26,699 nt of DNA from a virus. The stretch is taken from positions 1-26,699 of IMG/VR virus record IMGVR_UViG_3300029258_002049; one strand, written 5' to 3'. Shown piece after piece: positions 845 through 24,908 of the stretch. How positions within the stretch are numbered: position 1 is the stretch's first letter; every line of letters begins with the position of its first letter. Made by a program: the position numbers and the translations under genes. The notes beneath the pieces are model-generated. The model was not told the DNA's origin. It saw only the letters and a list, made by a program, of their open reading frames with translations, and searched no databases.

Positions 845-853
845 AATTACTCC

Positions 854-1498
854 TTAAACAACGGTTAAATCAGTTCTACCACTTAATTGTGCCCATGTAG
901 TATTCGCAACAACACACACTAACTCTAACGGCATAGACTTTCCAGATGTGGAACTATATGAAACTGAGCCTCCTGTACCAGTTGTACTTGTACCATTAGC
1001 TATAGTAATAATCTTTTGGCCAGCATTTTGAGTAACTGTAACTCCACTATGAGCAGTATAAGCAACAAGTCGTAAAATATCACCTACACTTGAAGTTGAT
1101 GGTAATAATGGGCTTGCAGACCCTCCGCCACTAGCCGCTATATATCCAGTATTTACAACACCTGTAAATGGATACGTTTGATCATCTATCCAATTGATCA
1201 CACCACCAGAGCCACCAGTACTTGTCACAGTTATAGTGTCTGAACTAGCTGAGGTGGTCACTCCACCTGACCCTTCAATGGAAAACGTCCCACTGGCGGG
1301 TGTACATGTCCCTGAGTCAGTACCCACGGAAGTTGCTACAGCATCAAAATTAATATTCCTATCATCCACAGTCCAGGTTCGAGTTGTTGCTGTTGTAATA
1401 CCTGAAACATCATAAGTAAGTACTTTTGTGTTGTCTGCATCATCTTTGATGTCTAGACCTGTTGATGCATCATTTATACAGTTCCTTACAGTAGCCAT
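854..1498 (-). CDS. Tail fibre/surface protein, paralogue of both flanking fibre genes
   Basis: This 214-aa beta-rich protein is composed of Ser, Thr and Gly to an unusual degree. Residues 1-57 are identical to the truncated gene at 1-623. Its C-terminal half, from about residue 110 (INWID, GYIAASGG, QNAGQKIITI, and a terminal VVANTTWAQLSGRTDLTVV), matches in layout the C-terminal domain of the 473-aa protein at 1508-2929 (GYITNN, QNAGEQIIWD, VADTTWTLLTSKGNITVA). The gene therefore looks like a mosaic: N-terminal module of one neighbour joined to the C-terminal domain of the other. AGGAG lies 6 nt before ATG. I infer a short fibre or fibre-tip protein of the virion. The terminal domain probably folds as a beta-sandwich that caps a trimer; this is inference. 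Confidence 0.8.
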   Translation of the reverse strand: MATVRNCINDASTGLDIKDDADNTKVLTYDVSGITTATTRTWTVDDRNINFDAVATSVGTDSGTCTPASGTFSIEGSGGVTTSASSDTITVTSTGGSGGVINWIDDQTYPFTGVVNTGYIAASGGGSASPLLPSTSSVGDILRLVAYTAHSGVTVTQNAGQKIITIANGTSTTGTGGSVSYSSTSGKSMPLELVCVVANTTWAQLSGRTDLTVV

Positions 1499-1507
1499 AT
1501 ATATCTC

Positions 1508-2929: not shown

Positions 2930-2937
2930 AATACCCC

Positions 2938-3288
2938 CTATATAACTCTATATGAAGACGATATTGTAACCAATCCAGCTGTAGGATCTGTTCCCGCAAC
3001 AAGTGACTTAACATAAAACTGAGTACCCTTAGGAAATACTATACCATTTGCAGCAATATCAGTCACAGATCCACCATTACTTTTAACTGGAAAATGATCC
3101 TCTACACCGTCTAAACTTACCCATAAATTAGCATCGCTAAAATTATATACTGAATCAATCCGACATGGATGATCTAATGGTGTACCAACAGCAACATAAA
3201 CACCCGCAACAGGAGTTACCGCAGTATCTAAAGTTCTTGCTGGCTCCATCCACCCACGTTCGGCTGATTGAAATGTATATGCATTCAT
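2938..3288 (-). CDS. Small beta-sandwich virion protein
   Basis: From the chosen start this is 116 aa: MNAYTFQSAERG, then beta-rich sequence with NLWVSLDGVEDHF, FPKGTQFYVKSL and a final SSSYRV. The pattern of a variable leading strand, an 'SLDG.. DH' turn, and 'GT..YVKs...' followed by a closing strand is seen in small virion or decoration proteins of short-tailed phages. I know the pattern rather than a named family. I chose ATG at 3288 because AAGGA sits 6 nt upstream. The longer frame from 3312 starts inside a hairpin and has no ribosome binding site. Its place between two fibre genes suggests a fibre-associated or capsid-surface protein. Confidence 0.75.
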   Translation of the reverse strand: MNAYTFQSAERGWMEPARTLDTAVTPVAGVYVAVGTPLDHPCRIDSVYNFSDANLWVSLDGVEDHFPVKSNGGSVTDIAANGIVFPKGTQFYVKSLVAGTDPTAGLVTISSSYRVI

Positions 3289-3303
3289 ATTATTCCTTAA
3301 AGT

Positions 3304-3322
3304 GGGCGCCATAAAGACGCCC
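3304..3322 (-). terminator. GC-rich hairpin between fibre gene and 116-aa gene
   Basis: GGGCG at 3304-3308 pairs with CGCCC at 3318-3322 around a 9-nt loop, just after the stop of the 820-aa fibre gene. On the minus strand the flanks AAA..CTTT add weak pairing, but there is no clean U-run. It could be a weak terminator or a processing/stability hairpin that sets the level of downstream fibre genes. Confidence 0.4.
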
Positions 3323-3333
3323 TTTAATTAAAT

Positions 3334-5796
3334 TTAAGCAGCAATTATCCAGAACGTAAGTATCAAATCACTTGCAAGAGCAGCTGCACCATTATTTTTA
3401 TATGTAACGGTAAACGAACCTGCCAATGGACGCACTTTTTGTATTGTACACTGAGCATCTTCTGCTCCAACACTAGCAAGAGTACACAATATTGCTGAAC
3501 CAACTGTACATACTGCATTTGTAACTGTTAAGACTTGTGTACCAGCTGCGGCGGTAACCAACCCGGTGAAAGTACCAACACCGACGTTTGCATTGACTGT
3601 AACAGCGGCTGCTGCCTGTGTATCTGTAGCCGGAACCATGTCGACTATACCATCAGCATCAAGAGTAAGACCTCCTGTACCAGCTTGAATAAGTGTATCT
3701 GTCGCACCAGTTTTATTGGAAATAATTACGTTTTTGGCAGTAGCATCAGCCCCTATAGAGATAGCTCCAGTTCCCGTTTGCATGGTAAATGCACCGTTAA
3801 CACTATCTACAGTAAAGCCACCCGTTCCATAATCAAAATCAAAACCACCAGCAGCATTCGAAGCATTCAATCTTATAGAGTTAGCAGCTGCAAGACCAGA
3901 AGTCACAACAACTCCACCTACATCAGATGTTACAGCAATAGAAGCCGCACCTGTTCCTTGATCTGCGTGCAATCTAAGAGTCTCATTGACTCCCCCATTT
4001 GTGTGAAGGTAAATTGCGTCCGCTGCATCTTCAGTAGCTGTAATTGTTGTAGAGCCTAATGTAGAGTTAAGTGCAATATCTCCGGTTCCAGAGTTCAAGG
4101 TACATGAGGATGCACCATTAACAGCACCTATCACGATATCTTTAGCAGTTGCATCAGCCCCTATATTAATATCACCTGTACCAGAGACTAAACCAATCTC
4201 ACTATTAGTAGCCGTTAATATGATGTTTCCGGTTCCAGCGTTGAAGGCCAATGCATTCGCACCTACAATATTACCTATAGTTGTCGTACGTTCACCTTGG
4301 GTGCCAATATTAATAGCAAAATCGTTATCATCATTTCCGACATTTAATGTTCCAGCTGTCGAATTTAAGGAAACATTTCCAGTAGCATCAATATCCACTG
4401 TTCCTGTACTTGTAATACTCGTATTTCCGGTTCCAGACTGCAAGATTGTCGATGCCGCTCCTGAGGTCGAACCTACGGTTACGGCGTGTACGGCGGCATC
4501 AGCGCCTATATTCACATCACCTGTTCCAGAGATCAACGATATGTCAGAGTCTGTAGCCGTCATTACAATGTTTCCGGATCCAGCGTTGAAAGCCAATGCA
4601 TTTGCACCTACGATATTACCGATTGTTGTCGTACGCTCACCTTGAGTGCCGATATTAATAGCAAAATCATTGTCATCATTTCCGACATTTAATGTTCCGC
4701 CAGTTGAGTTAAGAGACACGTTTCCTGCTGCATCAGCATCTATTGTTCCGGTGCTTGTAATCGATGTATTCCCGGTTCCTGATTGTAGTGTTGCTGAAGA
4801 GGTTGTATTTGTGCTGCCCAATATTGTGTCATGAGCTGTAGCAGATGTACCAAACTCAGCGTTTCCGGTTCCTACGTTACATGTAATCGATGTCGTTCCT
4901 GTAACGTTACCTATCACGATATTTTTTTGTGCAGCATCAGCCCCCAAGTTGATTGCTCCAGTGCCCGTTTCAAGGTTAAATGGACCATTAGCACCAGTTA
5001 CAGCAAAGCCTCCTGTACCAAAATCGCAATCAATACCACCAGCAGCATTTGAAGCATTTAATATCAATGCATTATTTGCAGCTCTGCCAGAATTCATATT
5101 AACTGAACCAACATCTGAGGTTAATGTTAAAGAGTTATTACCTGTCCCTTGGTCAGATCTGATGCGGATGGTCTCATTGACCCCCCCATTTGCCCTTAGG
5201 TAAATGCAGTCCCCTGCATCTTGATCTGATGTAATCGTACAAGTTCCTGATGTCATCGTAAAATCTACACCAGCAGTAACAGCTCCTCCAGCATCAAGAT
5301 CTCCAACAAGTGTAACATTATCATCTAGGTTGAACGTTACGGCATTTGCCGCCCCTGTACTTCCAATGTTTGTGCCCCCAATCATTTGGGTCACCCCTGC
5401 CAGAGGTGCAGCATTCCCAGCGTCCGTTTGGTACTGAGCCGCTTGTGCACCAACTACAGATAACGTAATTGTTCCTGCGCCTTCAGCTATACCAATAGAC
5501 CCATCTGTACCTAAGTTTGCCCATACAGGCGTCAAACCAGTTCGAGCTATGTAGAGCTGTCCGTCGGTGCCATCAGGCGTAGGATCTGCAACAACAGACC
5601 ATGTAGCTTGTGGAGGACTACCAGATATCAATGTCAAAATAAAATAATTACCAGTTAACCTATTGAGCCACGGTCTAGCAAGACTAGTAATATCATCGCC
5701 AGTTGGGTCTCTATCATAAATTAAAGCACCTTTTTCATTTTCAATTAATGGCTGTGAAAAGCCATACGAAATTTCAGGATATTCTTTAATGGCCAT
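3334..5796 (-). CDS. Large repeat-rich tail fibre / beta-helix protein
   Basis: The protein has 820 aa and is very rich in Gly, Thr, Asn and Ala. Residues 1-60 form a distinct N-terminal domain (MAIKEYPEISYGF, LARPWLNRLTGNYFI), the likely attachment to the virion. Residues 75-115 carry the GQLYIA...VWANL...EGAGTITLS module shared with the 473-aa fibre. Residues 180-700 are repeats: about five copies of a 'sGTGdInIGADAtAKdIvIG' unit, a tandem 115-residue repeat at about 333-530, and a longer block (TITSDQDAGDCIYL..NGGVNET..R) that recurs 397 residues later. This regularity fits a beta-helix or beta-roll shaft. The last 90 residues (TGLVTAAAGTQVL to LILTFWIIAA) form a non-repetitive C-terminal cap. 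AGGAG lies 6-7 nt before ATG. It probably trimerises as the main fibre; no enzymatic motif is seen. Confidence 0.82.
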   Translation of the reverse strand: MAIKEYPEISYGFSQPLIENEKGALIYDRDPTGDDITSLARPWLNRLTGNYFILTLISGSPPQATWSVVADPTPDGTDGQLYIARTGLTPVWANLGTDGSIGIAEGAGTITLSVVGAQAAQYQTDAGNAAPLAGVTQMIGGTNIGSTGAANAVTFNLDDNVTLVGDLDAGGAVTAGVDFTMTSGTCTITSDQDAGDCIYLRANGGVNETIRIRSDQGTGNNSLTLTSDVGSVNMNSGRAANNALILNASNAAGGIDCDFGTGGFAVTGANGPFNLETGTGAINLGADAAQKNIVIGNVTGTTSITCNVGTGNAEFGTSATAHDTILGSTNTTSSATLQSGTGNTSITSTGTIDADAAGNVSLNSTGGTLNVGNDDNDFAINIGTQGERTTTIGNIVGANALAFNAGSGNIVMTATDSDISLISGTGDVNIGADAAVHAVTVGSTSGAASTILQSGTGNTSITSTGTVDIDATGNVSLNSTAGTLNVGNDDNDFAINIGTQGERTTTIGNIVGANALAFNAGTGNIILTATNSEIGLVSGTGDINIGADATAKDIVIGAVNGASSCTLNSGTGDIALNSTLGSTTITATEDAADAIYLHTNGGVNETLRLHADQGTGAASIAVTSDVGGVVVTSGLAAANSIRLNASNAAGGFDFDYGTGGFTVDSVNGAFTMQTGTGAISIGADATAKNVIISNKTGATDTLIQAGTGGLTLDADGIVDMVPATDTQAAAAVTVNANVGVGTFTGLVTAAAGTQVLTVTNAVCTVGSAILCTLASVGAEDAQCTIQKVRPLAGSFTVTYKNNGAAALASDLILTFWIIAA
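4207..4801 (-). repeat. Tandem 345-bp repeat inside the 820-aa fibre gene
   Basis: The stretch starting near 4207 recurs near 4552. For example, TTGTCGTACG occurs at 4281 and 4626, exactly 345 bp (115 codons) apart. Similarity is high for about 250 bp of each unit and fades afterwards. The period is a multiple of three, so copy-number change would keep the frame. Confidence 0.85.
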
Positions 5797-5810
5797 TAAA
5801 TACTCCTAAA

Positions 5811-6029
5811 TTATTTTTTAAACCAATTATAAACTCTATTATACAAACTCTTAATTTTAGGAACTGCTAGTTTTGTAACTACACCTCCAACTATAGATCC
5901 TATAACAAGACCCACTTTGCCTCTATGATTTTTTGCTAACGAACTATTAGCAACCTTATCTTCAATCCTATCCAAAATGCATGCGTTCAATGAAGAACAC
6001 AAAAATATTGTTAATAATACTTTTTTCAT
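5811..6029 (-). CDS. Small lipoprotein with a second hydrophobic segment
   Basis: This 72-aa protein opens with MKK and a hydrophobic core ending in the lipobox LNAC, with Cys17 as the predicted lipidation site; this indicates a Gram-negative envelope. After a short charged linker (residues 18-38) comes a Gly-rich hydrophobic stretch (VGLVIGSIVGGVVTKLAV, about 39-56), then a cationic, aromatic tail (KIKSLYNRVYNWFKK). The mature protein could be tethered to one membrane by lipid and insert into the other or the same membrane. AGGA precedes ATG and overlaps the stop of the upstream ejection-protein gene. Possible roles are an outer-membrane spanin subunit, a superinfection-exclusion lipoprotein, or an envelope-active part of the ejection machinery. 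No partner spanin gene is visible nearby. Confidence 0.78.
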   Translation of the reverse strand: MKKVLLTIFLCSSLNACILDRIEDKVANSSLAKNHRGKVGLVIGSIVGGVVTKLAVPKIKSLYNRVYNWFKK

Positions 6030-6035
6030 ATTTTC

Positions 6036-9000
6036 CTAACGTCTATTAACTCTACTACTGACTTTTGTAATCAAGCCATTAATAGAAGCATCCTTGTAAC
6101 CGTTATCAATTAATACCTTAATAACATTCGATAATAATTTACTATCTTTATTCCTTAAAGCCCTAGCAACATATTTTTCCGCCTTATATAAGCTCATACC
6201 TCGTGATACTGGAACTGATCCAAGACCTGATCCAACATAAGGACCAAAACCTGTAGTAGTTAATGAAGCAACTGAAAATGGCAATACACCATGCATTAAA
6301 GCTTTAACACGAGATACAACACGCTCAGGGGTATATGGTTGGGTTGCATCCCAAGGTTTAAATTTACCTTCATCATATTTACCCCTAACTGGGAACTGTG
6401 TATCTCCTGCCGGCGTAGCTCCAATAAGTTGTTGATAAGCTAACTGTAATACTGGATTACCTTTTCCAAATAATGTTTGCACAGGCTTTGTTCCATAACC
6501 TAAAACTTCAAGAGCCTGTTTTCCAAGATGCGCATACATCTTCCTACCTTTAGAGTCTCTTCCAGGATTGAATATCGAAGATCCTACTTTAACATTTACA
6601 TCAGGTAATGAAAACATATATGCCTTGCTAGGATCACCATCCCAAAAGTTTTTAGCCGCCTTTTCACGAGACCATCTAATACCAGTTACTGAATTATTTT
6701 GCTTATCTGTCTGCTCTAAGCCGCCTAACGCATATTTTAATCCAGCCTGTATCAATGACGTTTTAATCATATAGTTTGCCCAATATCGTCGACCTAACTT
6801 ACCTGTAACTCCTGACCCAAACCCACTCCCAGCTTGTTTTAATGCTGATATAGTCCAGTCAGGATATGCTATAAATCTACGAAGCCATTTCATTGTCTTT
6901 GGATTATTGAAAAACTTACTTGTTTCCCATTGTTGACCACCATAAATGTTATTAACAAGAGTAGCTATATCTCTACCAATTGCCCTACGCTGCTGCTCTG
7001 TAGCTGGATTACCTTTTTTAATTAAATTAGAGAGCTCTTTATTTAATAATTCATTATAAGTTACAGCTTTAAGTCGTGGGTGATATACCTCAAATAAATG
7101 ATTCATACCCTTTTTAAGCTTACCAGTTATCGCTTTAGTTATCCTGCCTCCTTTAGATGCTGCAAAGTCTAATGCTTTATCCATCAAGTTAGAACCTTTA
7201 CGATAATCAATTGGTTTTTCAAACTTAACACCATCACGTACAGCTTCAGTCATAAATTGTTTGCTATTTAATAGTTGATCACCTTGCTTTGCAATCCCTT
7301 TAAAGTTTAATGCTTTCCTATAACCTAATGCCCCTACTGCTGATTCCGTTAAAGCAACTGCATGGAATGGAGATAACTGAACTCGTGCAGTACGCAATAT
7401 ATTAGAAGCATTATCAAAGTTCCGCCAAAATGCACCTTCACGCTTATAACCCTCTTTACTAAATACACCTTGGAATGCATCTGCTATTTTAGGATCAACT
7501 AATACAGCACCTTGAGCAGTTTTCCAAGTTCCATCTGCTGCTTTATATCGTTTTAATATTGGTTCCTCAAACGGTACAAAACCCATATCCTTAGCTTTAC
7601 TATAAAGTTCTTTATTATTAGTTCTAACGATTAACGGATTCTCACCAGGTGTTTTTTCAATTGCATTAACCATCTTAGATTTTGCAAGTGCTCTATTTGT
7701 TATCTCATCATACACAGCAACATTTTCAACAATACCTTTATACTTAGGTTTCAATCCCGCCTTGATTGCCTCTTGATGTGTTAAAAATTGTTTTTGCTCT
7801 GAAAATGGAGTTAACTTAGGGAACCCAGCAGTCTTCACCGCTTTTTTAATATCACCCTCATATAAGCCTGGCAAATAAGTATCAACAAGCACGTCTCGTG
7901 GATTAATATTTTTCAAGCGAGGATCATTATTGATTTGTTGTAATCGTTTTTTAAAATACGTATCTACATCGCTTACGAGTTTTTTTACTTGAGGTGACGT
8001 ACGCTTTTCAAGTGCCTGATATGTATCACCTGTGATATTTGGATTACCTGTTTTTTGTCTTAAGTATGAAGCCTCTTCAAGTTGTGTTGGTGTGAATTTA
8101 GGAACAAGTTTACCCTTATCACGCTTATAAATCTTGTCCCTAAACTCTAATTGCGTCTTAAATATTTGCGCATCACGTTCGCCCACATGCTCTTTAACCA
8201 AATCAAATGCCTGCTTGTTCTGAACGCTTTGCTTAATCTCTTGAGCATAACCTTGAATCCTCTGTATTGGTTTACGTATTGGGGCTGGTAATTTTTCAAT
8301 AAATCTAGATGGAGCTCTCTTGACAGGTTCAGGTAGATATTTTTTTATTGGTGCTCCAAATTTGTGTGCCATCTCCATACCAATTAAAGCTATTGCATTA
8401 TCACGTAACTGCTCTTTACTTGGAAGTTGTCCATCTATTATGGATTGTGCCGTATTTAAACCGATATACTCTAAACCTTTATAGGTAGCTTTTTGACCTG
8501 CACGTGTATTAAGAACCTTATTCCATACAGGAACTCGTTTCAATAAAGGTACAAATCTACCCATATTTGCAGTCACTAGACCCACTGCACCAGCCTTACC
8601 AGTTTCGCCAAGTACATGACTAGCTCGATCAATGAATTCGCCAAATGAACCATCACCGCCCTTTTTAACGTAATCTCTATATTCATTAAATGATGACTTA
8701 ATTAAAACAGGAGCCGCCATACCCATGAATGCTGCCCCTAATGTTGCGCCTAAAGCTGTTCCAGCACCAGGGATTATGGAACCAATAGCTCCTCCAACCA
8801 AACCGCCTATCGCAGCTCCTCCACTAAAAGCAGGAGCATCGGAAGCAAGTTCACCCCCAAACTCAGCAAGATATTCTAAGAAGTTATCTGCTTGTTCTGA
8901 GTCTTCTGGAGATCCCAATATTTGTCCTGTAACACCTCGACCTATACCCCGTGAAGCACCCCTTGCAACTCGCTTAATTATAGATGCATCTTTCCTATAT

Positions 9001-9287
9001 CGCTTATTTGTTTGCAATGGACCATATAACTCTTCAGTTGTTGGAATAAACATTGCACCTTCATCAAATGAGTCCTGAGGACCTGTATCAATATTATAAT
9101 CCTGTGTAGCCGTATCCTGTTGAAACTGAGATAACTCATCTGGTGTAAATGCAAATACATCATCAATAGGAGGTGCCTGCTGCTGAACCATTGGAAGATT
9201 AGCAGATGGTTGTTGTACAGGTTCAGCATTTAACTCTTCAGGTGTAAAAACCAATGGATTATTATTTAACTCTGAACCATTTGCCAT
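6036..9287 (-). CDS. Large internal virion (DNA ejection) protein
   Basis: At 1083 aa this is the largest gene here. The N-terminal 95 residues are acidic and Pro/Gln-rich and contain three related short motifs, FTPEEL (14-19), FTPDEL (47-52) and PTTEEL (82-87). Residues 152-196 are a long Gly/Ala-rich hydrophobic segment that could span a membrane. The rest is largely helical and basic. A region near residues 780-850 (NNIYGGQQWE ... RFIAYPDWTIS) resembles a conserved stretch I associate with large multi-domain phage virion proteins. I saw no lytic transglycosylase or peptidase signature. AGGGAG stands 6 nt before ATG. By position, downstream of tail hub and smaller Gln/Ala-rich proteins, it corresponds to T7 gp16 or P22 gp16/gp20-type ejection proteins. 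That assignment rests on size, composition and gene order, not on a clear homology. Confidence 0.72.
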   Translation of the reverse strand: MANGSELNNNPLVFTPEELNAEPVQQPSANLPMVQQQAPPIDDVFAFTPDELSQFQQDTATQDYNIDTGPQDSFDEGAMFIPTTEELYGPLQTNKRYRKDASIIKRVARGASRGIGRGVTGQILGSPEDSEQADNFLEYLAEFGGELASDAPAFSGGAAIGGLVGGAIGSIIPGAGTALGATLGAAFMGMAAPVLIKSSFNEYRDYVKKGGDGSFGEFIDRASHVLGETGKAGAVGLVTANMGRFVPLLKRVPVWNKVLNTRAGQKATYKGLEYIGLNTAQSIIDGQLPSKEQLRDNAIALIGMEMAHKFGAPIKKYLPEPVKRAPSRFIEKLPAPIRKPIQRIQGYAQEIKQSVQNKQAFDLVKEHVGERDAQIFKTQLEFRDKIYKRDKGKLVPKFTPTQLEEASYLRQKTGNPNITGDTYQALEKRTSPQVKKLVSDVDTYFKKRLQQINNDPRLKNINPRDVLVDTYLPGLYEGDIKKAVKTAGFPKLTPFSEQKQFLTHQEAIKAGLKPKYKGIVENVAVYDEITNRALAKSKMVNAIEKTPGENPLIVRTNNKELYSKAKDMGFVPFEEPILKRYKAADGTWKTAQGAVLVDPKIADAFQGVFSKEGYKREGAFWRNFDNASNILRTARVQLSPFHAVALTESAVGALGYRKALNFKGIAKQGDQLLNSKQFMTEAVRDGVKFEKPIDYRKGSNLMDKALDFAASKGGRITKAITGKLKKGMNHLFEVYHPRLKAVTYNELLNKELSNLIKKGNPATEQQRRAIGRDIATLVNNIYGGQQWETSKFFNNPKTMKWLRRFIAYPDWTISALKQAGSGFGSGVTGKLGRRYWANYMIKTSLIQAGLKYALGGLEQTDKQNNSVTGIRWSREKAAKNFWDGDPSKAYMFSLPDVNVKVGSSIFNPGRDSKGRKMYAHLGKQALEVLGYGTKPVQTLFGKGNPVLQLAYQQLIGATPAGDTQFPVRGKYDEGKFKPWDATQPYTPERVVSRVKALMHGVLPFSVASLTTTGFGPYVGSGLGSVPVSRGMSLYKAEKYVARALRNKDSKLLSNVIKVLIDNGYKDASINGLITKVSSRVNRR

Positions 9288-9289
9288 AT

Positions 9290-10423
9290 TTATCTCCCTA
9301 ATATATTACTCAAGCCACCTGATAATAAATTCTCTAGTCCACCCATAGGAGATTGTTGCTCCTGTGGTGAACGTACATCCGTTGGCTGATAGCCACCAAC
9401 TAAACCACTTATAGCACTTCCAGCTCTAGATAACAACCCAGGTTGTTGTGCCTGTAATGCCTGTTGTTGCTGTAATGCTGCTTGTTGCTCCATCTGTGCT
9501 CGTATAGATCTTTGAACATCCTGTTTTGATGGTTTTTGCACAATATACCCTAAAGACTCAGCAATCTTATAAGCTAACTTTGAAACATGATACGCCTGCT
9601 TTACAGGATCCCATGTGCCAAACCTAATATTTTTACGAGCTTGCTGAAGTGCTTGCTGTTTAAAGTATGCAACAATAGGATCGTTTGGGTCTCTACTTAT
9701 AGGCCTACCACGCATAATTTCACCCTCAAGAGTACCTTCAAGTTGTGCTTGTTCAACAGGTGTCATTTTGCCTTTAACAAATCTCTTTTTGTTTTCACGT
9801 ATCTTTTGTATGTCTACTGGTAAACTTTTTAGTTCCTGCCGTTTCCTAAATTGCTTAGCGCTATATACACCGTAATTTTGCATAGCGTCTTCATAAGTTC
9901 CTCCAGCCTTAATAACATCATTTGCATATCCTTGAAATGCTTTATCTGCACGACTTTGTCTTCGTGCCTCTTGAGCTACAGCACGTTTTTCAGCAAACGT
10001 CTCTTCCCTAGCTCGCTTTTGTATTGTTTTATCTATATATGCTTTTGCCTCATCAGGATTTAAGTTTTGAATTAAAGTAGGATCTATTCCATGTAACTGT
10101 GCTAATTGCAATACGGATTGTCTTTTTTGTTCAAGCTCTTGCTGTTTAAGCTCTTGCTTACTTGTCGATGCTGTTTGTAATCTATTATACTCTAAAAAAC
10201 TTCGTCGCTCACGAGGATCCATCTGCTGAAAATTAGGATCATTAACGTCTATACCTTGACTCCTTGCCAAGGCTGCTACTGACCTAGCTTCACGTCCACG
10301 TCTATTTTGTTCAATCTTTGCTCCTAAGTAACCACCCAATACATTTGATAGGCCACTTATAGAACTTCCAATTAATCTACGTTCAGGGCTGTATTCATAT
10401 TCATCTTCATAATATCTAGCCAT
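9290..10423 (-). CDS. Internal virion/ejection protein, coiled-coil, Gln-rich
   Basis: The 377-aa protein starts with Tyr/Glu-rich MARYYEDEYEYSPERR, then GLSNVLGGYLGAKI, a helical charged and Gln-rich body (QELKQQELEQKRQSVL, RAREETFAEKRAVAQEARR) with coiled-coil character, a poly-Gln-rich stretch near 315-330 and a C-terminus GGLSNILGR that echoes the N-terminal GLSNVLGG. It has no enzymatic motif. GAGG before ATG overlaps the end of the preceding gene (the two are one base apart) and the next gene starts two bases after its stop, so the four ejection-type genes form one tightly packed unit. I infer that it is one of the proteins held in the head or portal channel and released with the DNA, like T7 gp14/gp15 or P22 gp7/gp20. 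Confidence 0.7.
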   Translation of the reverse strand: MARYYEDEYEYSPERRLIGSSISGLSNVLGGYLGAKIEQNRRGREARSVAALARSQGIDVNDPNFQQMDPRERRSFLEYNRLQTASTSKQELKQQELEQKRQSVLQLAQLHGIDPTLIQNLNPDEAKAYIDKTIQKRAREETFAEKRAVAQEARRQSRADKAFQGYANDVIKAGGTYEDAMQNYGVYSAKQFRKRQELKSLPVDIQKIRENKKRFVKGKMTPVEQAQLEGTLEGEIMRGRPISRDPNDPIVAYFKQQALQQARKNIRFGTWDPVKQAYHVSKLAYKIAESLGYIVQKPSKQDVQRSIRAQMEQQAALQQQQALQAQQPGLLSRAGSAISGLVGGYQPTDVRSPQEQQSPMGGLENLLSGGLSNILGR

Positions 10424-10424
10424 A

Positions 10425-12557
10425 TTATTTTCCTCTTACAACAGGATTAACTTTTTGAGGTAAACCTTCAGCAAGTAGTCTACCTGAAATAGGATCTACA
10501 ACATTACCTACACCCTCAGCAACATTCCACAATCGTGTTGGTTGTTGAACAACTCTTCGCAATGGCGCCTGTGGTGTGATTTTTTGCCCTAAGGCTGCTT
10601 GCTGTGCTGCTAAATTATTAGCTCTTATATTAAGTTCAGCTTGCCTCTCTGCTTCCATAGCTCGTTGCTGATTTAAAGCTCTTTGATGCTCAAAGTTTTG
10701 TGCTTGTTCTTGTTGCTGTAGAAGTCTTTGTGCTTGTCTTGCCTGTTGATTAGCTTGTTCAACATTAACTTGTTGTTGTATTTGTCTTCTAGCAACATCC
10801 TCATTAGCTCGTTGTATATTACGTTGCATTACTTGAGGCATTAAAACATCTCTAAGTTGCACATCAAGGTTACCCATAACTTCCTGTGGTTGAACATCAC
10901 GTCCAAGAATTCTACCTGTTTGTTCCTGTAAAAATGGTATTGCTCGTTGTACTGCACCCGCAATTACTGGATTAGCCAACTGCTCACCTGTTTCAAAACC
11001 TGTATGTGCATACTGAGGACCTTGTTGGAATCCAAGTTTCCTTGCTATCCAATCATTTATACCTGTTGCTTTACCAATATCATATAATCCCTGAGCGCCT
11101 TGAAGACCTAATCTAATATTCCTAGCAGCATTAGGACTTCCTAATATATTACCCAAACCTCTTATTGGTGATGCTACACCTCTACGGAATCTTTGAAATC
11201 TTGTTGGTGCTTGCTGGCCTCCATAAAGCCAACCCAAAGGATTTCCACCAAGTAAAGTCTTTCCAAGTTTTCCTAATAATTGTCCCTCAGTTGTACGTTG
11301 TGAGCCGCTCATGAGTGATCTTAATATATCCGCTGTATTGGTACCTCTTAAAAAATCTACTGCTTTACCAGCAGTGGATTGTTTACCTTGTGTACCTGCA
11401 ATGATATCTGCCAAACCTCGTGTTCCACGACTAAAATATCCACCCTGGCCACCACGTAATAAATCTGCCAATCTTGTAAGCTCAGGTTGCTCTTGTGTTA
11501 AATAGTTAGTCAATTGATTAGCGCCAAGACTACCAAGTGCACCACCAGCAACGCCACCAAGAGCAGGCAACCCAACAAGAGCTCCTAATGCAGTTCCTCC
11601 AGCTCTACCACCAATACCAGCTGCCAAATTAGTCATAGGTCGAAATTTTCTAGCAAATCTAGAGACACCACCCTCTTCAGGTCTTATACGGTTAATTAAT
11701 GCATCATAACCTCGCACTAATGGACTATCAGTAGGAGCTCCAAATTGAGGTCTTTGTTCATAACCAGATTGTTGATACGCCTGAGCAAATGCAGGTAAAT
11801 GTTCAGCCACAGCAGCACTAGCTCCAGCTGGAACACCAGCTTTAGCCAATAATCCTGCAACCTCTTTTTCAACCGGGCTTTGCTCTTTTTGCTCTTCAGT
11901 AGGCTCTTTTCCACCAACAGTAGGATCTTGATTTCCTCTTAAAGTTTCAACTAACTGTTGATTAAGATCTTGTTGCTCTTGGGTATACTCAGAACCTGAA
12001 GTAGCATCTCTTGCTTTTGTATAAGATTGAACCGCTGGATGATCTTTATTTGCTGTTTTAGGAAGCTTTTTCATCTTATCAGGGGTAAATATTTTTTTAG
12101 ATTCACTATATACTTTATTTTCAAAATCATTTTGAGGATTGCCCTGTAAGATACGTTGAAAATCAGGTTCATTTAAGTTGTAAAAGTTTTTAAATGTTTG
12201 TACGTCTCTAGGTGTAATGTCTGATTTATCTTTAAGCGGTGTCGGTTTCTTTTTACGAGCCGCTTTGCGAGCTTCCTGTTTTTTAATCTTTTCAGACTCT
12301 GAATGTAAGAACCTTCCAAGCAACCCAGTACTACGGCCTTCAGCCTTAGCTTTTTGTTTAGACTGTTCATTGAGAGCCTGCATACCACGCACAGCTTTAC
12401 CAACCGGGCCTCGCACAGTCCCATATCGTTTTAAAATTTCATCATTACGCTCACTGACACCTTTACCACCCTTAATAATAGCCTGCAATTGTTTTAGATT
12501 AATTTTATATTTACTTAGCAAAGCTCTTATTGCTTTTATCTCTCTTTTATCTGCCAT
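10425..12557 (-). CDS. Internal virion/ejection protein with Gly/Ala hydrophobic segment
   Basis: The protein has 710 aa. Residues 1-110 are strongly basic and helical (many Lys/Arg, KKQEARKAARKKK near 92-104). Residues 200-235 are acidic and Gln-rich. Residues 308-350 are a Gly/Ala/Leu hydrophobic stretch (GTALGALVGLPALGGVAGGALG) with potential to enter a membrane. Residues 570-660 are Gln/Ala/Arg-rich with predicted coiled coil (QQQVNVEQANQQARQAQRLL). The combination of a basic DNA-facing part, a membrane-active Gly/Ala helix and a Gln-rich coil is typical of podovirus ejection proteins. AAGG precedes ATG and overlaps the end of the upstream gene. I see no lytic domain. The specific counterpart in T7 or P22 cannot be assigned. 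Confidence 0.72.
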   Translation of the reverse strand: MADKREIKAIRALLSKYKINLKQLQAIIKGGKGVSERNDEILKRYGTVRGPVGKAVRGMQALNEQSKQKAKAEGRSTGLLGRFLHSESEKIKKQEARKAARKKKPTPLKDKSDITPRDVQTFKNFYNLNEPDFQRILQGNPQNDFENKVYSESKKIFTPDKMKKLPKTANKDHPAVQSYTKARDATSGSEYTQEQQDLNQQLVETLRGNQDPTVGGKEPTEEQKEQSPVEKEVAGLLAKAGVPAGASAAVAEHLPAFAQAYQQSGYEQRPQFGAPTDSPLVRGYDALINRIRPEEGGVSRFARKFRPMTNLAAGIGGRAGGTALGALVGLPALGGVAGGALGSLGANQLTNYLTQEQPELTRLADLLRGGQGGYFSRGTRGLADIIAGTQGKQSTAGKAVDFLRGTNTADILRSLMSGSQRTTEGQLLGKLGKTLLGGNPLGWLYGGQQAPTRFQRFRRGVASPIRGLGNILGSPNAARNIRLGLQGAQGLYDIGKATGINDWIARKLGFQQGPQYAHTGFETGEQLANPVIAGAVQRAIPFLQEQTGRILGRDVQPQEVMGNLDVQLRDVLMPQVMQRNIQRANEDVARRQIQQQVNVEQANQQARQAQRLLQQQEQAQNFEHQRALNQQRAMEAERQAELNIRANNLAAQQAALGQKITPQAPLRRVVQQPTRLWNVAEGVGNVVDPISGRLLAEGLPQKVNPVVRGK

Positions 12558-12560
12558 AAT

Positions 12561-13400
12561 TTACCTTCTCTGTTGTTGAACATTAAAGGCTGGTTGATTA
12601 CCAATTTGATATTGTTGCACGCCTTGCCTATAACGCTGTTGATTATATTGATTAAATATATCTGCAACATTTTGTCCACGTTGTTGTTGTTGTAAATAAT
12701 CTTGTTGAGCCAAACCTTGCTCACCTCGACCTAACCTACCAATAAACTCATCTAATTCATTTTGAGCTTGTCCTTGTCCAGCCGCCAATCTCCTACCCTC
12801 TATATCCGTAATAGCATTTTGCCGTGCATAGTTTGTAAGTGCTTGTAATTGATTTTGACCTGTTTGTTGCGCTCTATTCAAATATAAATCCTGAAGCGCT
12901 CCCGCCACATTTGAAGACCCATACCCTAATCGTCTTCCCATTTGACTTTGATAAGCACCAACATCTTGTTGATAACCTCTTTGGCCTGCCTCTTGCATGT
13001 TCCTTAGTATGGCTGGCAAACCCCTTAATGGCTGTGCTGGATCTACATTTTCAACCTGAGCAGGTACGCCCGCAGCAATACCACCTGCTTGTCGCATCCT
13101 AGCTTCCTGAGGTTGTACTATATTTTGCCTGTTTTGCAAATAAGCAAGTCCCTGTTGAAGATTTTGCTTTTGCAACTCATAGGCCTCCGGCGTCACATTC
13201 ATTTGTGATAGCGTACGATTCCTTTGATATTGATATGGATTTTTCCATTGCTTATATTTATCAATGCCATATGCACCAGCCCTTAACGCATAAGGTAGCG
13301 CCTGCAATGTAAGCCCCGCCCCAATTAACCATGGATTAGCTGTGGCAACGCCAGCCGTAGTGGCCGCACCGCCCCAACTCAGTGGATTATACCATGCCAT
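12561..13400 (-). CDS. Internal virion/ejection protein, Gln-rich
   Basis: The protein has 279 aa. Its N-terminal 50 residues are hydrophobic (NPLSWGGAATTAGVATANPWLIGAGLTLQALPYALRAG as successive short stretches) and could insert in a membrane. The remainder is exceptionally rich in Gln, Arg and Tyr (LQQQQRGQNVADIFNQYNQQ near the C-terminus). Size, a hydrophobic N-terminus and Gln-rich helices resemble T7 gp14 or P22 gp7, the smallest ejection proteins; this is inference from composition and order. GGGAG lies 8 nt before ATG at 13400. It is the first minus-strand gene after the plus-strand insertion at 13488, so the divergent region 13401-13487 may hold its promoter, unless transcription continues from the tail-hub gene. 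Confidence 0.72.
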   Translation of the reverse strand: MAWYNPLSWGGAATTAGVATANPWLIGAGLTLQALPYALRAGAYGIDKYKQWKNPYQYQRNRTLSQMNVTPEAYELQKQNLQQGLAYLQNRQNIVQPQEARMRQAGGIAAGVPAQVENVDPAQPLRGLPAILRNMQEAGQRGYQQDVGAYQSQMGRRLGYGSSNVAGALQDLYLNRAQQTGQNQLQALTNYARQNAITDIEGRRLAAGQGQAQNELDEFIGRLGRGEQGLAQQDYLQQQQRGQNVADIFNQYNQQRYRQGVQQYQIGNQPAFNVQQQRR

Positions 13401-13487: not shown

Positions 13488-13946
13488 ATGAAAACACAAT
13501 ATAATTATTTTGCATCTAAAGTTTCATACACTCCAAAACAAGAGGAATTAGTAGCTAATATCTTTGATAGATTTAATCAATTAGTAGATATAGTTAACCT
13601 CAAACCTTTAGGTCTTTATGCGGATACCATTTTGCCCAGTGCGGAAAAATGGTATTTAAACGCTACAGCAAAGGCTCAAGGTGTTTTATATACGACTATA
13701 GACTGTGGAGCTTTGCCTAATACTGGAACTAAAAATGTCCCACACAATATACCTATAGTAGCAGGATATAAAATTATTGAATTTTATGGGACAGCAACAG
13801 ACCCAGCGGGCCTTTTTACAAGATCAATGATTGGTGATCCAAATATTAATATAATAATCAATCAGACTCATATTGTTATAACAACAACAGCCGCATTAGC
13901 TTCATATAGTGAATCACACCTAGTAATTAGATATATAACACCTTAA
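13488..13946 (+). CDS. Plus-strand virion appendage-domain protein
   Basis: The protein has 152 aa. Residues 1-45 are helical and hydrophilic (QEELVANIFDRFNQLVDIVN). From about residue 60 it is a beta-sandwich-like domain with the motif GALPNTGTKNVPHNI followed by alternating strands (GYKIIEFYGTA, INIIINQTHIVITTTA, SHLVIRYI). The 'ALPN..TK.V.HNI' pattern is one I associate with C-terminal or receptor-binding appendage domains of phage tail proteins. It is a lone plus-strand gene within minus-strand tail genes. Its stop and that of the convergent tail-hub gene share the palindrome TTAA (13943-13946). It may be a separately regulated tail or decoration protein, or an acquired moron carrying a virion domain. 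Confidence 0.72.
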   Translation: MKTQYNYFASKVSYTPKQEELVANIFDRFNQLVDIVNLKPLGLYADTILPSAEKWYLNATAKAQGVLYTTIDCGALPNTGTKNVPHNIPIVAGYKIIEFYGTATDPAGLFTRSMIGDPNINIIINQTHIVITTTAALASYSESHLVIRYITP

Positions 13947-20384: not shown

Positions 20385-20909
20385 TTAACCCTCAATAATT
20401 AGATTTTTTTGATCTTTATTGTTTTCCGTAAATGCAAGTTTGGTATATGTACCATCATAATATTTTACAATATGCTCATATATATCTTTTTCATCTTCAG
20501 GTACTATAAGCACTATATTTTTATAATAATCACAAACAGTCCGATCAGGCACACACCATAAAAATTGTATCTCATCTCCATCATTTACATACTTATATAC
20601 AATCTGATCATGGAACGGAGACGGACAAGTGCGCCTTGCTGCAAATATATTCATATAAGCATCTGAAATAAGACGCTCTTTTTTTATCAGGACTTCAATA
20701 TAAAAGTCACCATCAAAATGTTTTTTACCGTTAGCTACACATTGATTAATCTGTTCATCAAAATCATGAAGGTTGGCCATAACCTGATCTTCAACGCTAT
20801 GTGTATTATATTTACGTAGATGATCAACAGAGGCAGCCTGCTCACCAACAGTTGGTCCCGTAGTATCCCGTAACTTAGTATATCTAACCCAATTTTTATG
20901 AATTTCCAT
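20385..20909 (-). CDS. Conserved virion-module protein upstream of scaffold
   Basis: The protein has 174 aa. It contains FDEQINQCVANGKKHFDGDFYIEVLIKKERL, then RRTCPSPFHDQIVYKYVNDGDEIQFLWCVPDRTVC (read in parts: CPSPFHDQIVYKY, DEIQFLWCVPDRTVC) and a C-terminal helical tail. The pairs 'CP.PF.DQ.VYKY' and 'IQFLW.VPD...C' are a pattern I associate with a conserved but uncharacterised protein of short-tailed phages, often close to portal, scaffold or capsid genes. Several Cys and His residues could bind a metal, but no standard zinc-finger spacing is evident. AGGA lies about 9 nt before ATG. Its start faces the divergent plus-strand cassette. The role is unknown; head assembly or an injected early factor are both possible. 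Confidence 0.75.
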   Translation of the reverse strand: MEIHKNWVRYTKLRDTTGPTVGEQAASVDHLRKYNTHSVEDQVMANLHDFDEQINQCVANGKKHFDGDFYIEVLIKKERLISDAYMNIFAARRTCPSPFHDQIVYKYVNDGDEIQFLWCVPDRTVCDYYKNIVLIVPEDEKDIYEHIVKYYDGTYTKLAFTENNKDQKNLIIEG

Positions 20910-20936
20910 ACATTTTTCCTTTTAATATGTTATCTT

Positions 20937-20951
20937 GTTAATGATATTAAC
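20937..20951. promoter_or_regulatory. Inverted repeat in divergent region, operator candidate
   Basis: GTTAATGATATTAAC is a perfect 6-bp inverted repeat with a 3-bp centre. It lies between the start of the minus-strand capsid-side genes (20909) and the plus-strand cassette (20974). Two RHH-like proteins are encoded in that cassette and such proteins usually bind short AT-rich palindromes, so this is a natural candidate site. Confidence 0.45.
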
Positions 20952-20973
20952 ACTTAAAATAGGAGGAACCAAA

Positions 20974-21225
20974 ATGAAAGTTGTTAATATATTACTCGCC
21001 ACTCTATTGTTATCTTCTCCATTAACCTATACACAATACAAATATAAACGCCAACCCAAAAAGAGATATCAACGGATGCACATCCAGAATAGACGTCGCC
21101 AACAACAAGAGGAAGCTACCTGCTGCACACCAACAAACGTCAAAAACGTAATAAAAATATCAGCGAGTCTAACAAAACTAGCCGTTACAGTATTATATAA
21201 GCTTATCCCTATCATAATAAGGTAA
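20974..21225 (+). CDS. Small exported cationic protein with hydrophobic C-terminus
   Basis: From ATG at 20974 the product has 83 aa. I chose this start because AGGAGG lies 8 nt upstream, and because the resulting N-terminus MKVVNILLATLLLSSPLTYT is a good signal peptide; the longer frame from 20935 spoils it. Residues 22-45 are very basic (KYKRQPKKRYQRMHIQNRRR). CC stands at 50-51. Residues 56-83 form a hydrophobic or amphipathic helix (NVIKISASLTKLAVTVLYKL, then IPIIIR). The gene has its own terminator. Cleaved, it would be a short periplasmic cationic peptide; uncleaved, a two-segment membrane protein. Lysis factor, superinfection exclusion or envelope-modifying moron are all possible, and none can be shown. 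Confidence 0.72.
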   Translation: MKVVNILLATLLLSSPLTYTQYKYKRQPKKRYQRMHIQNRRRQQQEEATCCTPTNVKNVIKISASLTKLAVTVLYKLIPIIIR

Positions 21226-21230
21226 GGATA

Positions 21231-21259
21231 TGTCCGGTGTAAAAGCCGGACATTTTTTT
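21231..21259 (+). terminator. Strong intrinsic terminator after small exported protein gene
   Basis: TGTCCGG (21231-21237) pairs with CCGGACA (21246-21252) around an 8-nt loop and is followed directly by seven T (21253-21259). The T-run is only on the plus strand. Confidence 0.9.
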
Positions 21260-21260
21260 G

Positions 21261-21290
21261 TTGCATATCTACATATAACCATGCTATAAC
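21261..21290 (+). promoter_or_regulatory. Sigma70-type promoter for lipoprotein-RHH operon
   Basis: TTGCAT (21261-21266) is separated by 18 bp from TATAAC (21285-21290), and TG at 21282-21283 gives an extended -10 (TGCTATAAC). It lies just after the previous terminator and 29 bp before the lipoprotein ATG, so this operon has independent expression. Confidence 0.65.
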
Positions 21291-21319
21291 TTTTATATAT
21301 ATCCATAAAGGGGTTTAAA

Positions 21320-21769
21320 ATGAAACAAAGTTTGATATTATTGTTACTTATTTCACTAAGTGCCTGTGGAATGAAACATGTACCAACGTGGTACGATGAA
21401 GATTATAAAAGAGCACGTAAATTCTTAAAGATAAGGAATAAGATGAAATTTGAGTTTAAAGATTTTCAAGGTATCAAAAACGCTGAATTAAAACTAACTA
21501 AAAACGATGGTGAAGATACATACAATGTTATTGTTAACTGTGACGGCAAAGATTGTATTCAATTCCTAACTGTGCCATCACAATATGTTAAAGAGGATCA
21601 AATTGACGATAAGGAAAAAAAGACCCTATCTGAGGAAGATAGCATTAAACTTGTTAAACATAGAGTCAATATTGTCCTATCACAACTAAGGCAATGTATT
21701 TTCACTGCAAATCTATATGGTGCAAAAATCGATGGGTTTATCGAACCTATCAAAAAAGATGAAAACTAA
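21320..21769 (+). CDS. Predicted outer-membrane lipoprotein
   Basis: The protein has 149 aa. MKQSLILLLLISLSACGMK is a lipoprotein signal with lipobox LSAC and Cys16; Gly at the next position does not match the inner-membrane retention signal (Asp), so an outer-membrane location is likely. The mature part is hydrophilic and charged. It has beta-type segments (KMKFEFKDF, AELKLTKNDGEDTYNVIVNC) and helices (EEDSIKLVKHRVNIVLSQLRQC), with three later Cys (C69, C74 and C128 approximately), two of which could form a disulfide. I do not recognise the family. AAGGGG precedes ATG. It is the first gene of a plus-strand operon with two RHH-like genes and ends overlapping the next one. Phage-encoded lipoproteins on separate promoters are often superinfection-exclusion factors (T5 Llp type), which is the main hypothesis. 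Confidence 0.8.
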   Translation: MKQSLILLLLISLSACGMKHVPTWYDEDYKRARKFLKIRNKMKFEFKDFQGIKNAELKLTKNDGEDTYNVIVNCDGKDCIQFLTVPSQYVKEDQIDDKEKKTLSEEDSIKLVKHRVNIVLSQLRQCIFTANLYGAKIDGFIEPIKKDEN

Positions 21770-21935
21770 ACCTGTTTTGATATTGATGAGCGATGAATAT
21801 CGCAAGATGTTGAAGGAAATTGCCACAGCTAGGTCTGAGGATTTAAACTATTCCAGACGTGTTACAGCAACTGAGATCATACTTTATGGTATACAACTCG
21901 CATACAAAAAACAATTCAAAAAGAGGCGGCCATGA
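21759..21935 (+). CDS. Small ribbon-helix-helix-like protein
   Basis: From ATG at 21759 the product has 58 aa. A short strand (KPVLILMSDE, residues 4-13) is followed by helix A (YRKMLKEIATAR), a turn and helix B (TATEIILYGIQLAYKK, residues 36-51), ending in a basic tail KKRRP. This is the order and size of an RHH (MetJ/Arc) DNA-binding protein, which dimerises and inserts its two strands in the major groove. The start overlaps the end of the lipoprotein gene and has no clear Shine-Dalgarno, so translation is probably coupled. In-frame ATGs at 21717 and 21732 are alternatives. It overlaps the next gene by four bases (ATGA). It probably autoregulates the cassette; an antitoxin role is not excluded. 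Confidence 0.62.
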   Translation: MKTKPVLILMSDEYRKMLKEIATARSEDLNYSRRVTATEIILYGIQLAYKKQFKKRRP

Positions 21936-22300
21936 AGAAGATAAAAAAAACAATTGCTTTAAGCAAAGATAACTACGATCTCCTTATAGATATTCGTAAA
22001 AAATATGCGGCAGGTCATGCACCTGAAGCAGACATAAAGCAAACATTATCACAGGTTGATAAGACAATGCCTACGATATCAGGCATTTTTGAACGAGCAT
22101 TGAATCTTTTTTATACTATGGCTATGAAGCCAGGTACTATTTACTTCATGAACATCAATGAGGAACCTATAACAAAGATGCAAACAATATACCTGACACC
22201 AATAGCTAACAAAAAATATAATGAAATACTAATAAGATTTGACTGTAAACCAGTAGACTTAGTTAACGATCTTATAAACTTTATTTATGCACAAAAATAA
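21932..22300 (+). CDS. Tandem double ribbon-helix-helix-like protein
   Basis: The protein has 122 aa. The first half has a strand (KKTIALSK, residues 5-12), helix A (DNYDLLIDIRKKY) and, after a 20-residue insert, helix B (TISGIFERALNLFYTMA, residues 48-64). The second half repeats the order: strand (KMQTIYLTP, 82-90), helix A (ANKKYNEILIRF) and helix B (KPVDLVNDLINFIYA, 106-120). A single chain could therefore form the two-fold RHH unit that normally needs a dimer. The start is set by ATGA overlap with the upstream gene and by GAGG 6 nt before ATG. The gene ends 47 bp before a strong terminator. It is probably a DNA-binding regulator of this cassette or of the divergent capsid genes. The RHH assignment is from pattern, not from a profile search. 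Confidence 0.62.
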   Translation: MKKIKKTIALSKDNYDLLIDIRKKYAAGHAPEADIKQTLSQVDKTMPTISGIFERALNLFYTMAMKPGTIYFMNINEEPITKMQTIYLTPIANKKYNEILIRFDCKPVDLVNDLINFIYAQK

Positions 22301-22347
22301 TATCCTTATACGGTTTATAAATATTATGTGATGTAGTGCATAAAACG

Positions 22348-22375
22348 ACAGGGTGTACTAATACACCCTGTTTTT
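22348..22375. terminator. Convergent terminator, 10-bp stem
   Basis: ACAGGGTGTA (22348-22357) pairs with TACACCCTGT (22362-22371), with a CTAA loop and TTTT after it on the plus strand, closing the plus-strand cassette. On the minus strand the stem is followed by CGTTTTA, so it may also stop minus transcription. The stop codon of the 37-aa minus ORF lies in the loop. Confidence 0.85.
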
Positions 22376-22760: not shown

Positions 22761-24908
22761 TTAAATCAATCCTGGAGGCATTCCTCCACCCATCTGTCCC
22801 GGATCAGGTTCCTGCATTGGTGGCTGCCCTTGCATCTGTGTAGGGTCTTGCATTTGTGCTGGATCCTGCATTTGTGGTCCCAGATCTTGTGGTGGCAAGT
22901 CAGCTTGATTAGCAACGTTGTCCATCTCAGTACTCTGAATCGCCATATCTCTATTTTGTTGTATCATATTCAACAATTCAAGTAATTCATCAATACGATT
23001 TGGATCAGCTTGCTCTAGCTCTTTAAGTGTTTTTATTGTTTCAGTATTGGTTTTTTGTTCCTCTCTTGAAGATTCAGCACTCTTATACAGCATGTTGAAC
23101 TTATCAAGTTTGATTTCACTAGCACGTTTTTTAGCTAGAGATGAATCAGATTCAGCACGAGCATTAATCATATTTGTGGTTGCTTGTTGTTCCATGAGAT
23201 CTGACTTAAGTCGCATTTGTTCCATCTCATCAGTTTTTTTATTTTGCTGCTCAATAGCCTGTACCAAGTTCTTTTTGTTCTGTAATGGAGCTGCTTCTAT
23301 GATCACGCTATCAGGAATCTGAATACCCTCTTTACGTAGATTAAGTAATTGACCGAACTCGTTTTGTCTTTGATTAATCGTGTCAAATCCTTCAGAGATA
23401 ACAATGTCAAACTTGGAAAACAACTTAGTATAAAACTGTGCATGTGGCTCTTCATTGATGATACGTTTAACCTTGCTGGGAGCATAATTTTTTTGTATAA
23501 GCTGAACTATGGAAGTACCTAAAAGCTCCATCGAGCCTTCAAGGTTGTCGTATAATGTTTGCAGAGTGGTTACCCCTTGAGCCTGTCTCATCCTCGCTCT
23601 CATACCAGATATATCGTCATCAGCGAAGCCCAATAATTCCTCATTAACACCAGATATTTGTTGAATTTCATCAGCAAGCATCTGTGATAATTGTGTAAAC
23701 GATTGTGGAATATCTATTGGAGGTATCGGTGCAATATCTGCAAGCTCATAACCTCTCTTAACAATTATAGGTCTACCATCTCCAGCCCTTATGATTGAGT
23801 CTGGATCTTTTAATGCGCCCTCTTTAGCAATAAAGCCAGAGTTAGTTCTGGATTCTGCTAAATTGTATTCAATTACTTTCCGACGATTATATAGATATTG
23901 TACGTCTCTTAAACCACGCACAACACCTTGAATCTTTAAGGAAAAATCTGCAACATCTGGATGGAAATATCCAAACACTGGTATGAATGGATAACTATCT
24001 AGTCCTAGGGGATTCACATCGTCGTACATAACTTTGCCGTTAACTAATAAGGCAAGCTTAACCGTAGGTACCATGGTTTCCAGCACCTTGATCTCTGGTG
24101 CAAACTTTAAAAACTGCTCCAGTGCATCATCATCACCATCCCACTCAATTACCTCATTTGTGTTGGGATCGACTAACTGCTTTTGCTTACGATAGTCACG
24201 ATAATAAAACTCATCATACGCCATCAAATTTTGACTAGCGGTAACGCTTTCAGGCATATAATTGAACTTTCCATCCCCCCTAAAGGTTTCCATCTCCTCA
24301 ATCTCTCTACGCTTATTTGGTATCAGTGAAGCACATGCATCTCTTGGCATGTATGATCTTTTCCATATAGCGTTACAGTCAGATAGATCTTTTTCCCTAA
24401 AGTACGGATCAATGATAATACTACTATGGCCACAATTGCTTAATTTAATATCTCCTGAAATTGGATCATTCCTATAATCAACATAAAGTTGAATGAAGTT
24501 AATTCCAGATATAATCGCACCTTCAAATGCATCTGATATAATCGTTGATGCTCTTGATGTTTTAAATACAGATGCTAACAGCTTACTTGTTTGATCAGCT
24601 GCATCTTGATCACTGCCCTCTTGAGGTGAGGCCAATAACGCTCTACGCTCACGTCGCTGAAACCCAGAGATTAAATTAATATTACGTTTTATCCTATTGC
24701 AGGTAAAACTTTGCCTTGTTTTTAACGGCACATTGTATAATTCAGACCATAAAGTTTGATCACCAGCATTAAAACGAACGTCAATAGCTGCTTCGTCTTG
24801 ATATTCCTGGTTCATCATTGTTACGTCAGTATGGAATTTCTCTATCCTCTGTTTTACGGCTATATCTTTTTCATCGAAATAAATACTATTTTCAGGAAAT
24901 AAAGCCAT
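22761..24908 (-). CDS. Portal protein
   Basis: The protein has 715 aa, close to the P22 gp1-type portals (725 aa). Features include an N-terminal helical part with RFNAGDQTLWSELYNVPLKTRQ, FTCNRIKRNINLISGFQRRERR, and the long central segment with LRDVQYLYNRRKVIEYNLAE and QISGVNEELLGFADDDISGMRARMRQAQGV (read in parts). The last is a strong mark of the P22-like portal family. The C-terminal 45 residues are disordered Gln/Met/Pro repeats (QMQDP, QMQDPT, QMQGQPPMQEP). AGGAG lies 7 nt before ATG. It forms the dodecameric ring at the packaging vertex that docks terminase and, after packaging, the adaptor and hub. It is followed by a hairpin, so downstream genes may be separately expressed. Confidence 0.88.
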   Translation of the reverse strand: MALFPENSIYFDEKDIAVKQRIEKFHTDVTMMNQEYQDEAAIDVRFNAGDQTLWSELYNVPLKTRQSFTCNRIKRNINLISGFQRRERRALLASPQEGSDQDAADQTSKLLASVFKTSRASTIISDAFEGAIISGINFIQLYVDYRNDPISGDIKLSNCGHSSIIIDPYFREKDLSDCNAIWKRSYMPRDACASLIPNKRREIEEMETFRGDGKFNYMPESVTASQNLMAYDEFYYRDYRKQKQLVDPNTNEVIEWDGDDDALEQFLKFAPEIKVLETMVPTVKLALLVNGKVMYDDVNPLGLDSYPFIPVFGYFHPDVADFSLKIQGVVRGLRDVQYLYNRRKVIEYNLAESRTNSGFIAKEGALKDPDSIIRAGDGRPIIVKRGYELADIAPIPPIDIPQSFTQLSQMLADEIQQISGVNEELLGFADDDISGMRARMRQAQGVTTLQTLYDNLEGSMELLGTSIVQLIQKNYAPSKVKRIINEEPHAQFYTKLFSKFDIVISEGFDTINQRQNEFGQLLNLRKEGIQIPDSVIIEAAPLQNKKNLVQAIEQQNKKTDEMEQMRLKSDLMEQQATTNMINARAESDSSLAKKRASEIKLDKFNMLYKSAESSREEQKTNTETIKTLKELEQADPNRIDELLELLNMIQQNRDMAIQSTEMDNVANQADLPPQDLGPQMQDPAQMQDPTQMQGQPPMQEPDPGQMGGGMPPGLI

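Follow-up and report, generated by a model that had tools for sequence, protein, structure and literature searches.

An accessory gene block read against the head genes in one clade of an uncultured podovirus family

Results

Gene content and genomic setting of the block

Between the portal gene and p174, the window (the whole stretch analysed here, a 26,699-base virus record) carries four open reading frames, orfA to orfD, that are read from the plus strand amid minus-strand head genes (Table 1), bearing out the opposed orientation described in an earlier note on this DNA. The pairs orfB/orfC and orfC/orfD each overlap by a few bases.

Table 1. Genes and predicted signals of the block and its flanks, in window coordinates
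Feature	Position	Strand	Description
p174	20385-20909	-	conserved head-module gene
Divergent leader p174(-)/orfA(+)	20910-20973		conservation; promoter boxes by eye
Proposed orfA promoter	20922-20927 and 20942-20950		TTAATA - 17 nt - extended -10 TGATATTAA; putative, by eye
orfA Shine-Dalgarno	20961-20966		AGGAGG
orfA	20974-21225	+	83 aa; signal peptide, strongly basic mature peptide, amphipathic C-terminal tail
Terminator 3' of orfA	21230-21253	+	z -4.4 against shuffles; L003 z -6.3; L004 z -4.0
orfB-orfC-orfD promoter	21261-21290	+	putative; TTGCAT - 18 nt - extended -10 TGCTATAAC
Conserved 29-bp element	21272-21300		overlaps orfB promoter; TATAAC repeated at 11-bp spacing
orfB	21320-21769	+	149 aa; lipoprotein signal (lipobox LSAC, Cys16) and conserved 108-aa core
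Possible second orfB start, Met42	21443-21769	+	AAGGA-N5-ATG; putative cytoplasmic core form
orfC	21759-21935	+	58 aa; strand-helix-helix-like pattern, possible small DNA-binding regulator
orfD	21932-22300	+	122 aa; by eye two strand-helix-helix units
Conserved non-coding block 3' of orfD	22301-22322		19/22 invariant
Bidirectional terminator between orfD and late genes	22348-22371		z -5.4, both strands
Portal	22761-24908	-	

The same phage is also represented by a contig of 38,026 bases (L002/L018) that includes the window, matching it without mismatch over positions 1-12875 and, except for one gap, over the remainder. An exact direct repeat of 144 bases at its two ends shows that the L002 contig closes into a genome of about 37.9 kb, which encodes an Erf-like annealing protein, a RusA-like resolvase and one tRNA-Glu. 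The portal is of the P22 type (Pfam P22_portal, E 1.2e-72), with about 25% identity or less to named phages among the matches listed, and a related capsid protein is encoded by at least 555 stretches of the viral collection; the window phage is a member of a large uncultured podovirus family. Three diverged relatives, L005 (portal 93% identical), L003 (89%) and L004 (82%), were compared with it, and these together with the window are the four genomes referred to below, L002 being the same phage as the window. Within this phage, two tail-fibre-like genes (window 854-1498 and L018 1812-4148) have nearly identical first ~50 residues (MATVRNCINDASTGLDIKDD...), which suggests that fibre genes sharing an N-terminus are arrayed in tandem.

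Four metagenome bins contain family members, two of them assigned to Chlamydiota, and 8 Chlamydiota genomes out of 234 have capsid relatives. Since no inspected contig is larger than a phage genome, binning error is possible, and we did not accept Chlamydiota as the host. Several Chlamydiota-binned genomes have split matches to the capsid gene (L127 10379-12300, L129 10997-12818, and genomes G010, G079 and G102); in L127 and L129 an ORF that by eye resembles a homing endonuclease lies between or beside the capsid pieces, and the capsid gene may have taken insertions more than once.

Selection on the four genes

The block occupies the identical site and orientation in L005, L003 and L004. Substitutions across these relatives fall mainly at third codon positions as read on the plus strand. 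Measured relative to the window, dN/dS is 0.20-0.44 for orfA, 0.08-0.22 for orfB, 0.17-0.23 for orfC and 0.13-0.20 for orfD, compared with 0.06-0.18 for p174 and portal. By this substitution pattern all four are protein-coding genes under purifying selection. The block nonetheless evolves faster than its neighbours, judging by L004, where its genes retain 52-64% identity versus 80-87% for portal, p174 and capsid. A foreign base composition was not seen (G+C 0.33 versus 0.35 to 0.38).

Distribution across the podovirus family

We found the block in five contigs of one clade (the window and L002, L003, L005 and L004) and in none of the other contigs of the family that were tested. Portal and p174 occur in order in 49 contigs, and orfA to orfD lie between them in 4, all clade members; the gap measures 168-6770 bp, and in the 45 others it holds unrelated genes or almost nothing. 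Within the clade the block is fixed: every close relative found (portal identity 82% or more) has it in this position, and none with the site empty turned up. The presence or absence of a gene set at a single site fixed by its flanking genes is a hallmark of morons, and the proposal that these genes are accessory equipment, with the comparison of relatives suggested as its check, is upheld in that they are not a conserved core of all relatives. Because the genes are confined to one clade at a variable site, we regard them as an accessory block rather than as core virion equipment.

Antisense genes occur in the same gap in L006, L027, L083, L085, L093, L094 and L103, and some gap genes are exported, but over the relatives as a whole neither exported nor antisense genes are significantly overrepresented there (odds ratios 1.6 and 1.5, p 0.19 and 0.25, respectively). 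The interval between p174 and capsid also varies (831-5209 bp), so accessory genes between head genes are commonplace in this family. In L085 (6831-7412) and L103 (3504-4061) the portal-p174 gap holds antisense ORFs that by eye resemble serine recombinases, and in L033 (6296-6748) and L129 (14191-14724) p174 is itself inverted relative to the head genes. The window has a second antisense gene, of 152 aa, inside the tail module (13488-13946, plus strand; 50% identity in L004).

Two putative transcription units

A consensus scan of the region returned 19 promoter-like sites against 18.8 expected, which is chance level, and the promoter at 21261-21290 was therefore not acceptable from its consensus match alone. 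Conservation supports it: segment 21268-21300, which includes the extended -10 (TGNTATAAC), is invariant at 28 of 33 positions in the four genomes, versus 43% of third codon positions (P about 8e-7), consistent with a promoter upstream of the lipoprotein gene. The 29-base element that overlaps it occurs, as an exact match in the viral collection, only in members of this clade, and is a candidate operator. The leader of orfA is conserved more strongly still, with 55 of 60 positions invariant in the four genomes (20914-20973; P 2e-15 versus third codon positions).

Both predicted terminators fold far better than shuffled sequences and their pairing is conserved. The orfA terminator has a compensatory change at the stem base in L004, and the stem of the terminator downstream of orfD is preserved in L003 and L004 despite changes on both sides. 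As the latter is bidirectional in structure it also faces the late operon, and it could act in both directions.

These signals resemble those of a moron, with promoter and terminators of its own set opposite the neighbouring operon. They do not describe the single self-contained cassette of the earlier note, which had given the four genes one promoter and two terminators. The promoter segment and both terminators are conserved as claimed, but orfA lies upstream of that promoter, and the sequence signals indicate two transcription units: orfA with its own leader and terminator, and the overlapping orfB-orfC-orfD.

Predicted properties of the four proteins

Searches of the four proteins against Pfam, PHROGs, NCBIfam, PADLOC and PDB sequences, which the earlier note had proposed as a check, gave nothing convincing and yielded no homologue of known function for any of them. 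No toxin or antitoxin family was matched by the block proteins, and Rfam gave no matches.

For OrfA, a signal peptide, a very basic mature part (net charge +8 to +13) and an amphipathic tail are predicted in 4/4 genomes, along with a conserved CC(T/N)PTN. The proposed secreted cationic peptide agrees with these predictions.

OrfB was described as an outer-membrane lipoprotein, which the sequences bear out in part. An LSAC or LCAC lipobox is present in three of the four genomes, where the lipobox region is itself conserved, but L004 has none: its OrfB lacks the first 41 residues and keeps the core without the signal, so that an envelope location is apparently not essential to the core. The L004 gene begins at an ATG preceded by AAGGA at a spacing equal to that of the internal Met42 of the others, and the ribosome-binding signals and spacing at Met42 are preserved in all four genomes. 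Such sites are uncommon in the window genes tested (4 of 114 internal ATGs), so that a second, cytoplasmic OrfB product starting at Met42 is possible. L004 also encodes, after terL (9079-9348), an exported 89-aa protein whose start shares the motif MK..P.W..ED.K with the window OrfB; the match is weak (E 1.2e-5 and 2.8e-5) and includes the signal peptide.

No relatives of OrfB were found in annotated phage genomes (tblastn, 50,697 phage records, E 1). A PADLOC match to HamA2 (E 0.0036) was dismissed as a chance fragment, covering 45 residues of a 308-residue model. The AF2 models of OrfB (pLDDT 47) and OrfD (pLDDT 42) were too low in confidence to interpret, and Foldseek with the OrfB model returned no matches at E 0.001.

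Mnt and Arc of phage P22 are ribbon-helix-helix (RHH) proteins, and OrfC matches an Arc-like PHROG at a borderline level (E 0.11 by library; 7.5e-4 to 0.014 in one-genome searches). Pfam RHH_1 (PF01402) gave no hits in any of the genomes, and OrfC had no match among PDB sequences. A ribbon-helix-helix fold is plausible but unproven for OrfC. It is unsupported for OrfD, which matched nothing in the libraries, the Arc-like PHROG included, and whose halves, considered as a tandem repeat, do not align significantly. The two RHH-like proteins that had been proposed are therefore not established.

Discussion

The best-supported statement about this locus is architectural: the sequences point to an accessory block within the head module that has signals of its own, is under selection and is confined to one clade. 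The closest known design is the immI/sieA region of P22 (sieA, mnt, arc, ant), which lies inside the late operon, is separately expressed, varies greatly between relatives and combines small regulators with a membrane exclusion protein (PMC8022706, PMC10883804), SieA, which blocks DNA injection (PMC10883804). The likeness is one of layout, not of sequence, and the window phage also has a P22-type portal. The differences are considerable: the window block lies between portal and p174 whereas immI lies between gene 16 and gene 9; the block has no detectable homology to SieA, Mnt, Arc or Ant (Pfam, PHROG and other searches gave no ant or sieA matches for OrfA, OrfB or OrfD) and its phage has no integrase; and it encodes a predicted secreted peptide and lipoprotein where SieA is an inner-membrane protein with three transmembrane segments.

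Superinfection-exclusion lipoproteins of the T5 Llp and Cor types are small phage lipoproteins, as OrfB is predicted to be in three of the four genomes, and Llp targets FhuA from its periplasmic side (PMC9586334). However, OrfB is unrelated to Llp or Cor in sequence (by the same tblastn search, and without a PHROG lipoprotein match), does not lie beside a receptor-binding gene and lacks its signal in one relative; moreover, no adjacent regulator pair is described for Llp (PMC9586334). As far as the cited account goes, the Ltp-type lipoproteins of temperate Streptococcus thermophilus phages also have a part in superinfection exclusion (PMC3952083) and are phage lipoproteins, as predicted for OrfB, but they belong to temperate phages of a Gram-positive host, and no sequence similarity to OrfB was found.

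We tentatively favor a reading, reasonable though short of probable, in which a moron-like accessory block, peculiar to this clade, has been inserted in opposition to the head genes and is probably transcribed on its own rather than with the late operon, much as sieA-mnt-arc-ant is separately expressed within that of P22. OrfC, perhaps with OrfD, would be a small protein that binds DNA at the conserved element overlapping the orfB promoter and so regulates its own expression. OrfA and OrfB would have the host envelope as their target while infection proceeds; the likeliest effects are that related phages are kept out or impeded, or that the envelope is changed to the phage's advantage. Because the products appear to be exported (the OrfA signal peptide, the OrfB lipobox), superinfection exclusion at the envelope is our leading guess. 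Several observations count against this: no homologue of known function, the signal-less OrfB of L004, no significant excess of exported or antisense genes at this position in the family, and the weak assignment of the regulators. Neither a tyrosine nor a serine integrase was matched in the closed L002 genome, and no repressor or lysogeny genes were recognised in its ~37.9 kb; there would then be no lysogen to protect, and for the same reason the lysogenic conversion suggested in the earlier note is unsupported. A more specific proposal, that orfB yields two products, one a lipoprotein of the outer membrane and the other a cytoplasmic core form, controlled by two small proteins that bind DNA, making up a previously undescribed immunity or exclusion unit unrelated in sequence to immI, seems to us very unlikely.

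The OrfB core might instead act in the cytoplasm, in a toxin-antitoxin-like or anti-host regulatory operon in which OrfC and OrfD repress the core and the operon, the lipoprotein signal being a later or alternative targeting form. The overlapping genes, the conserved promoter element, the survival of the core without its signal in L004 and the internal start signals kept in all four genomes are consistent with such an operon. However, it finds no toxin or antitoxin family match, RHH is not confirmed, and the lipobox region is conserved in three genomes; we consider it unlikely.

A part in cell lysis for OrfA, possibly with OrfB, as a secreted cationic, membrane-active peptide aiding release, is quite unlikely. 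In its favor, OrfA has a basic character and an amphipathic tail throughout the four genomes, and a scan of proteins from the closed genome (L002, L018) recognised no holin or endolysin family, but the separate promoter and antisense position argue otherwise, OrfA matches no family, and unrecognised lysis genes may sit elsewhere (a transmembrane protein at 623-844, a lipoprotein-like one at 5811-6029). Doubtful to the same degree is that these are ordinary genes of the head region, specific to this lineage (encoding minor virion proteins or helpers of assembly) and inverted by chance, which would suit their fixation in all close relatives, the low dN/dS of orfB and the inversion of neighbouring p174 in L033 and L129, but not the 45 contigs with an intact portal-p174 interval that lack them, the signal peptides or the separate terminators on both sides.

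At present the moron-like block is one clade's orphan gene set, with good evidence for its reality and poor evidence for its function. If it does exclude rival phages, it would be a new exclusion unit, one with no known relatives in sequence, contributed by a large family of uncultured phages, and the gap between portal and p174 would be a useful place to seek more accessory genes.
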